64,000 nucleotides of DNA, from the NCBI GenBank assembly GCA_902569405.1, contig CACFTX010000003.1, positions 62,001 to 126,000 of the forward strand. Reading direction: 5' to 3'. A program made the position numbers and the translations under genes. This stretch comes from an uncultured Pelagibacteraceae bacterium (GTDB taxonomy: Bacteria; Pseudomonadota; Alphaproteobacteria; Pelagibacterales; Pelagibacteraceae). The notes beneath the pieces are model-generated. The model made no database searches. It worked only from the letters and a program-made list of their open reading frames with translations, and was not told the DNA's origin. Below, piece by piece: positions 52,293-52,791 of this stretch; within the stretch, counting starts at the first letter, position 1, and each line of letters begins with the position of its first letter.

Positions 52293-52309
52293 TTTATAAT
52301 TGTTATAAA
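52293..52309. promoter_or_regulatory. ICE-like palindrome between fabA and irr
   Basis: TTTATAA-TTG-TTATAAA is a perfect 7-3-7 inverted repeat, 11 bases before the irr ATG at 52321. It has the layout of the Irr-bound iron-control element TTTAGAA-N3-TTCTAAA, with one change in each arm. A TATAAT (52295-52300) lies inside it, so a bound protein would block that promoter. It fits autoregulation of irr and possibly control of fabA. AT-rich palindromes arise easily here, so the match gains weight mainly from the similar site before katG. Confidence 0.55.
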
Positions 52310-52320
52310 TTAGGCAAAAA

Positions 52321-52737
52321 ATGGAAAATAAAGACATTTTTATAAAAAAATTAAGATCCTCAGGACTTAGACCCACAAGACAAAGAATTGAAATTTGTAA
52401 AGTATTGTACGATAGAAAGAAAACCTTTCATTTTACAATAAACGATTTGTCTAAAATCCTTAAAAAGAAATCGAATGAAAAGATTTCATTAGCAACAATC
52501 TATAATACTGTTTGTGCTTTTAAAAATAGAAATTATTTGAAAGAAATTTCAATTAACTCAAGTAAAAGTTATTTTGACACCAATGTTTCAAATCATCATC
52601 ATTTTTTTAACGAAAGTACTGATGAACTTATAGATTTAAAAAATGAAGATGTAGGAAATATAAAGTTAAAAAAAAAAATACCAGGAAAAAAAATTAAATC
52701 AGTCGAAGTTTTAGTTAAAATTCAAGACAATAATTAA
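52321..52737 (+). CDS. irr: Irr-like Fur-family iron/haem response regulator
   Basis: The 138-residue Fur-family protein has the winged helix (RPTRQRIEICKVLY, KISLATIYNTVCAFKNRNYL) and NHHHHF-type haem-binding histidines in NVSNHHHFFNESTDELIDL near 89-107. The N-terminal haem motif of Bradyrhizobium Irr (GCPxHD) is absent, as in many other Irr proteins. Its place divergent from fabA-fabB-fabI is the standard site of irr in alphaproteobacteria. Irr represses or activates iron and haem genes when haem is low. katG, a haem enzyme, follows after 60 bases behind a similar operator. Confidence 0.88.
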   Translation: MENKDIFIKKLRSSGLRPTRQRIEICKVLYDRKKTFHFTINDLSKILKKKSNEKISLATIYNTVCAFKNRNYLKEISINSSKSYFDTNVSNHHHFFNESTDELIDLKNEDVGNIKLKKKIPGKKIKSVEVLVKIQDNN

Positions 52738-52762
52738 ATTAATAAAGGATATTTTTTCATAA

Positions 52763-52791
52763 TTGACACTACTTTAGAATCATTATAAAGT
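52763..52791 (+). promoter_or_regulatory. katG promoter with overlapping ICE-like operator
   Basis: TTGACA (52763-52768) is a perfect -35 box; -10 candidates are TATAAA (52784-52789) and TAAAGT (52786-52791). Between and over the -10 lies TTTAGAA-TCA-TTATAAA (52773-52789), which matches the Irr iron-control element TTTAGAA-N3-TTCTAAA except for one base in the right arm. A protein bound there would cover the -10 box. The start of transcription would be at or next to the ATG at 52798, so the message may be leaderless. Confidence 0.6.

Follow-up and report, generated by a model that had tools for sequence, protein, structure and literature searches.

In SAR11 bacteria, the gene for the Fur-family regulator Irr, a palindrome of the iron-control element (ICE) type and an adjoining peroxidase gene probably constitute a compact regulatory module, in which Irr would repress the peroxidase gene via the palindrome and be released by a signal that inactivates the regulator. 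The larger result is an irr–ICE module with an apparently exchangeable peroxidase; genome comparison gives good support to the operator at katG and to a link between it and Irr. Sequences provide the motif, its position, its conservation, the mutual exclusivity of katG and rubrerythrin (rbr) genes and the lack of an ICE in genomes with no irr found; that Irr binds, that it represses and to which signal it responds we infer. The module was studied in the window, by which we mean the whole 64-kb stretch of DNA analysed; its host belongs to SAR11, with Pelagibacteraceae as closest named relatives, and has a genome of 1.21 Mb.

A sequence-only reading of the window had marked two palindromes of 7-3-7 layout, TTTATAA-TTG-TTATAAA before irr and TTTAGAA-TCA-TTATAAA before katG. 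Both are present (table 1), with left arms that differ at one base, as it described, and identical right arms. Each lies in a promoter and departs from the ICE sequence TTTAGAA-N3-TTCTAAA at no more than two positions. Random occurrence from AT content does not account for the exact pattern TTTAKAAN3TTATAAA, which gives three matches at two sites in the 64-kb window against 0.11 expected, and 0 of 100 shuffles reach three. The stricter pattern TTTAGAAN3TTMTAAA has one match in the window, and 6 of 100 shuffles have as many; when two mismatches are allowed, the window shows no enrichment (44 versus 35). Exact matches to the stricter pattern are likewise not over-represented in 61 genomes of the window's genus (93 versus 157 for the reversed control), and genome-wide motif numbers, showing no enrichment, were discarded as support. 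Among the 86 distinct places at which this pattern occurs in the 61 genomes, 25 are at most 160 bp before katG and 16 are before irr, while 30 fall within open reading frames (ORFs) of at least 90 aa and 15 elsewhere. The signal of the motif is its placement, not its number.

Table 1. Features of the fabA–irr–katG locus, in window positions.
Feature	Position	Strand	Basis or remark
fabA	51737..52240	-	divergent from irr; conserved neighbour
TATAAT, likely -10 of irr	52277..52282	+	sequence; kept in most rows of an alignment of 37 intergenic regions
ICE-like site before irr, 12/14 to TTTAGAAN3TTCTAAA	52293..52309	+	begins 10 bp past TATAAT; decayed in window's clade
irr, Fur-superfamily regulator, 138 aa	52321..52737	+	Pfam FUR; HHH motif, no CxxC, no CP
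TTGACA, likely -35 of katG	52763..52768	+	sequence and alignment
ICE-like operator of katG, 13/14	52773..52789	+	fills spacer, overlaps -10 (TATAAA 52784-52789)
katG, catalase-peroxidase (catalase/peroxidase HPI), 742 aa	52798..55026	+	occupant of peroxidase slot

The right arm of the katG palindrome offers two alternatives for the -10 element, TATAAA (spacer 15) or TAAAGT (spacer 17). Given the position of the katG start, its message would be nearly leaderless, and the irr palindrome, from its distance to TATAAT, would cover the transcript start of irr; both positions suit a repressor. Downstream of katG, the forward strand carries a 58-aa ORF (55163-55339) with three CxxC pairs, possibly a zinc-ribbon protein.

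When katG promoters of relatives are compared, an ICE matching at least 12 of 14 positions is found in all 53 SAR11 irr–katG gaps and one matching at least 13 in 44 of them; the lower threshold is also reached in 25/25 SAR11 irr–rbr gaps, counts that are not independent, since many rows are close relatives. By comparison, it is reached by 0/23 control intergenic regions and by 1.1% and 0.6% of dinucleotide shuffles of the katG and rbr gaps, respectively. (Two loci with a cut-off irr, L222 and L223, were left out of the tree, gap scoring, consensus and promoter counts, and the genus set shares some members with the GTDB-contig set.) A site scoring at least 11 begins 5–15 bases past the start of TTGAC, that is, between -35 and -10, in 47 of the 53 katG gaps. 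The rbr gaps are arranged with an ICE-like site upstream of TTGAC (25/25) and, in 18/25, a second site downstream. The consensus of the SAR11 sites is TTTAGAAT-N-ATTATAAA. Four loci (L025, L036, L043 and L044) have a weaker site at the -10 and a second palindrome, ATTAGAA-N3-TTCTAAT, upstream of TTGAC, a pattern we would expect if binding is maintained despite base turnover. In the order-level sample, 22 of 23 linked katG gaps score at least 12 and the remaining one (L330) scores 11/14; in the genus sample, katG lies directly 3′ of irr in 29/29 katG genomes. The katG site is thus a conserved ICE-type operator over the katG promoter and probably Irr's, and in this part the earlier proposal that Irr controls both itself and KatG is supported by comparison; the part on self-control is weak, as set out below. 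Its link between peroxide defence and haem supply is a conjecture, and the rbr data under iron limitation, given below, point the opposite way.

The position after irr can be described as a peroxidase slot. In all 25 readable loci without katG the gene following irr is a rubrerythrin as judged by eye, and one of these slot proteins matches Pfam PF02915 with 105.6 bits. Among 117 genomes of the order, 46 have katG, 59 have rbr, none has both and 12 have neither; the zero overlap would have a chance of 1e-21 if rows were independent, and kinship makes them dependent. The corresponding numbers in 61 genus genomes are 29, 15, 0 and 17. With irr detected at E <= 1e-20, 94 order genomes divide into 37 with katG, 55 with rbr and two with neither, and the 23 without such a match into nine, four and ten. 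A quick tree of Irr and FabA with 78 rows requires two changes for rbr and four for three slot types (katG type A, katG type B and rbr), where the mean after shuffling is 25.0; its well-supported branches force two changes for rbr and three for katG type A, and rbr rows are nested among katG rows. This tree suggests at least two exchanges between katG and rbr inside SAR11, each of which may have run either way, under the same kind of operator. We give about even weight to a broader reading, in which irr and its ICE would form a portable cassette controlling a single exchangeable slot; unrelated enzymes, the haem enzyme KatG (of two types) and non-haem rubrerythrin, would replace one another there while the kind of operator stays the same, and Irr of SAR11 would have turned into a peroxide regulator with little more than one target. 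One locus of the sister family f2 (L330, genome G064) carries an irr–katG pair close to the window's type, its Irr being 58% identical where others of its genus are 41–48%; this looks like transfer of the module. The presence of KatG in SAR11, and of rubrerythrin in 4/28 SAR11 members, has been reported before (PMC11366302).

Many Alphaproteobacteria outside SAR11 appear to have irr followed by an ICE and rbr. In a class-level sample of 53 irr loci, made up of the best 30 of the listed places and 23 chosen from the rest, and biased to Irr proteins near that of L086, the next gene is rbr in 40, another gene in 12 and a contig end in one; as the query was an Irr already adjoining rbr, the 40/53 is biased upwards. 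An earlier locus set, read from the first ORF, had rbr next to irr in only 4/43 non-SAR11 loci. The class-level irr–rbr gaps contain an ICE of at least 12/14 in 22/40 and of at least 11 in 32/40, compared with 0/2000 and 0.9% of their mononucleotide shuffles, and in the sister family f2 all seven rbr gaps read contain an ICE of 13–14 of 14. The GC content of the class-level loci is 46–71% (33 loci with a printed value), and the presence of an ICE between irr and rbr in such DNA connects the motif of SAR11 with the classical ICE.

The motif search did not yield the Irr regulon of iron and haem genes that had been anticipated. In this genome, matches with zero or one mismatch lie at katG, before an 80-aa ORF and, in three cases, inside ORFs, with no clustering at iron or haem genes; by eye, no iron or haem gene was recognised next to any of the 15 remaining non-coding places in the 61 genus genomes. 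The ORF of 80 aa, membrane-protein-like and with no Pfam match, has a perfect ICE 4 nt before it (L001:1501-1517; G000:C1:165910). It was dropped as a conserved target: among 13 relatives compared, L267 has a 12/14 match at the same distance, and L257–L259 have one 100 bp upstream. A second candidate, the ICE-like ATTAGAAACATTATAAA (L224:9161-9177; G000:C1:169160), lies between genes for a 1-Cys peroxiredoxin and a metallo-beta-lactamase-fold protein. Upstream regions of the peroxiredoxin in the genus reach at least 12/14 in 10/29 cases against 0.5% of shuffles, but at two different positions, which leaves the peroxiredoxin a possible third Irr target. Separately, four genomes (loci L104, L105, L108 and L135) share an ICE-like site 39 bp before one membrane-protein-like gene.

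In the mechanism we propose, SAR11 Irr would bind TTTAGAAT-N-ATTATAAA, where it covers the -35/-10 region of the next gene downstream of irr, and repress that gene; a signal inactivating Irr, either haem or an effect of peroxide on its metal site, would free the slot gene, which is rubrerythrin in many other Alphaproteobacteria and katG or rbr in SAR11. Most SAR11 irr genes would in addition carry an operator over their own likely start site, decayed in the window's clade. The regulator of the window has a Fur-superfamily domain (Pfam FUR, 74.1 bits; cut-off 23.1), and its best two NCBIfam models are IrrA/Irr with 126 and 115 bits (best PerR model, 58). The two Irr scores lie below the curated equivalog cut-offs of these models (150 and 170 bits, respectively), so the protein is called Irr-related, an orthologue by gene order and not a curated member; the orders fabA–irr and irr–rbr are common to SAR11 and other Alphaproteobacteria. 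PerR proteins carry a structural Cys4 zinc site, and CxxC occurs in 0/78 SAR11 Irr rows. The HXH motif, described as haem-binding in PMC7762939, is present as HHHF in 78/78 rows.

What inactivates Irr is the point on which the strongest competing account differs; it concerns the signal, not the operator. We consider it a serious possibility, short of even odds, that SAR11 Irr is a PerR-like peroxide sensor, which when bound by Fe2+ represses irr and the slot peroxidase gene and lets go on exposure to H2O2 or on iron loss, the link to haem being lost or secondary. A peroxide scavenger occupies the slot of the readable loci, and the peroxiredoxin described above may be a third target. The Per box has a T-N-A centre, and so, mostly, does the SAR11 motif. 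The CP haem regulatory motif of the Bradyrhizobium japonicum type, which is not present in all Irr proteins, occurs in 0/78 SAR11 rows. Five residues that we take to align with the regulatory ligands of PerR are kept in the window's Irr; however, they are also conserved in the other alphaproteobacterial Irr sequences of the alignment, which carry HHH, HPH or HNH. Moreover, 50/53 katG sites retain the arm G characteristic of an ICE. Irr is described as acting on DNA at low iron or haem (PMC3413700, PMC7762939). PMC2864753 gives a 1.57-fold rise of rbr mRNA (SAR11_0399, which may not be the irr-adjacent rbr) in Ca. P. ubique 24 h after chelation, with no significant change in Irr protein under iron limitation. 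This rise fits a PerR-like sensor but is small; it speaks either against the textbook sign, in which Irr represses at low iron, or for a signal of the peroxide type. In stationary phase with sulfur limiting, rbr mRNA was down to 0.17 and its protein up 2.24-fold (PMC5069961). On the side of the main account, three other Alphaproteobacteria have irr mutants described as more resistant to oxidative stress (PMC3413700).

The regulator itself is addressed by genomes in which irr and katG are separated. Nine katG genomes of the order sample lack an irr match at E <= 1e-20 with the window's Irr as query, a threshold that a very divergent Irr could escape. Two of them were set aside, G152 (which has an ICE of 12 but no more than 127 bp of contig in front of katG) and G103 (a fragment), as were the rbr genomes without detected irr (G106, G107, G122 and G137). 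In the remaining seven readable katG promoters the ICE is absent (7/7), the best match within 200 bp being 9–10 of 14. The cleanest case is G146, where fabA and katG are 85 bp apart, irr is gone from between them and there is no ICE. In the other six, katG is 57–61% identical to the window's and no fabA was found in the stretches concerned, so that with another katG type in other surroundings the ICE may never have been there, and G146 is the only case of loss in place. Four katG genomes with no irr found (loci L372, L373, L376 and L377) have katG 3′ of a gene resembling an iron permease, presumably of the FTR1 type. Conversely, an ICE is present (12, 13 and 12; 3/3) in three f2 genomes in which irr and a divergent katG (65–66%) lie on different contigs; two of the three unlinked irr matches have one TAA inside the match and an open frame of 138 aa. 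Absence of the ICE without the regulator and its presence without linkage argue for Irr acting in trans, and action in trans on the katG ICE is the favoured reading. That another Fur-family protein uses the sites, with irr a mere neighbour, is improbable: the window's genome encodes two more such proteins and Fur-family boxes resemble each other, but the ICE follows the presence of irr rather than its linkage, and the sites match the irr–rbr ICE of more GC-rich relatives.

The self-site of irr is a different matter. Upstream of irr, 52/78 SAR11 rows have an ICE of at least 12/14. Outside the window's clade, as taken from the Irr and FabA tree (SH-aLRT 91, not starred), these are 48 of 53 tree rows (exceptions L191, L196, L198, L207 and L211); within it they are only four of 25, namely the window, L016, L018 and L036. 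The perfect palindrome of the window's irr site recurs in two of the remaining 77 rows, each a very close relative. Conservation of the irr site fails in the clade concerned: it is below 12/14 in 21/25 rows, which makes self-control in this genome doubtful. Irr self-sites thus appear to be a common SAR11 feature that is fading in the window's clade. They may also exist elsewhere, as 6/53 class-level loci reach 12 within 200 bp upstream of irr; ten f2 loci with an Irr of their own family reach at most 11. It is unlikely that the palindromes are by-products of AT-rich DNA in which the right arms act as ordinary -10 boxes, despite the TATAAA within TTATAAA and the survival of mainly the right arm at the irr site of the window's clade, for the katG left arm is about as conserved as the right and the control regions lack such sites; for the irr site of that clade alone, this account may apply.

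Among the literature titles and abstracts consulted, none concerns an Irr box upstream of SAR11 katG; a box between irr and rbr of SAR11 may have been reported earlier, and Rodionov et al. 2006 reportedly predicted Irr boxes. SAR11 are among the most numerous marine cells and have kept few regulators, and a very small regulon tying one peroxide enzyme to Irr would offer a handle on the timing of their peroxide defence. With katG and rubrerythrin replacing each other next to one regulator, and the operator missing where the regulator is missing, these genomes amount to a natural experiment in which targets are kept and enzymes changed, and haem versus peroxide sensing by SAR11 Irr becomes directly testable. 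Of the known systems, the PerR-regulated peroxidase genes of Gram-positives share with the proposed SAR11 module a Fur-family regulator, a palindromic operator and a peroxide-scavenging target, and differ in the Cys4 zinc site of the regulator. Irr of B. japonicum (bfr, blr7895), like that of SAR11, has ICE-type palindromes at promoters; its rubrerythrin-like target blr7895 has in-vitro binding and a repressor position, as cited in PMC3413700. In B. japonicum blr7895 is one of many iron-regulated targets, whereas two conserved target positions were found in SAR11; B. japonicum Irr has the haem regulatory motif (PMC7762939), which as the CP motif is absent from SAR11 Irr. In Rhodobacter sphaeroides Irr, as in SAR11, has only two predicted boxes, both at oxidative-defence genes (mbfA and ccpA), and the mapped 5′ end of mbfA lies inside the Irr box; according to PMC3413700, katE is raised in the irr mutant with no box and is unbound, whereas in SAR11 katG itself has the site.
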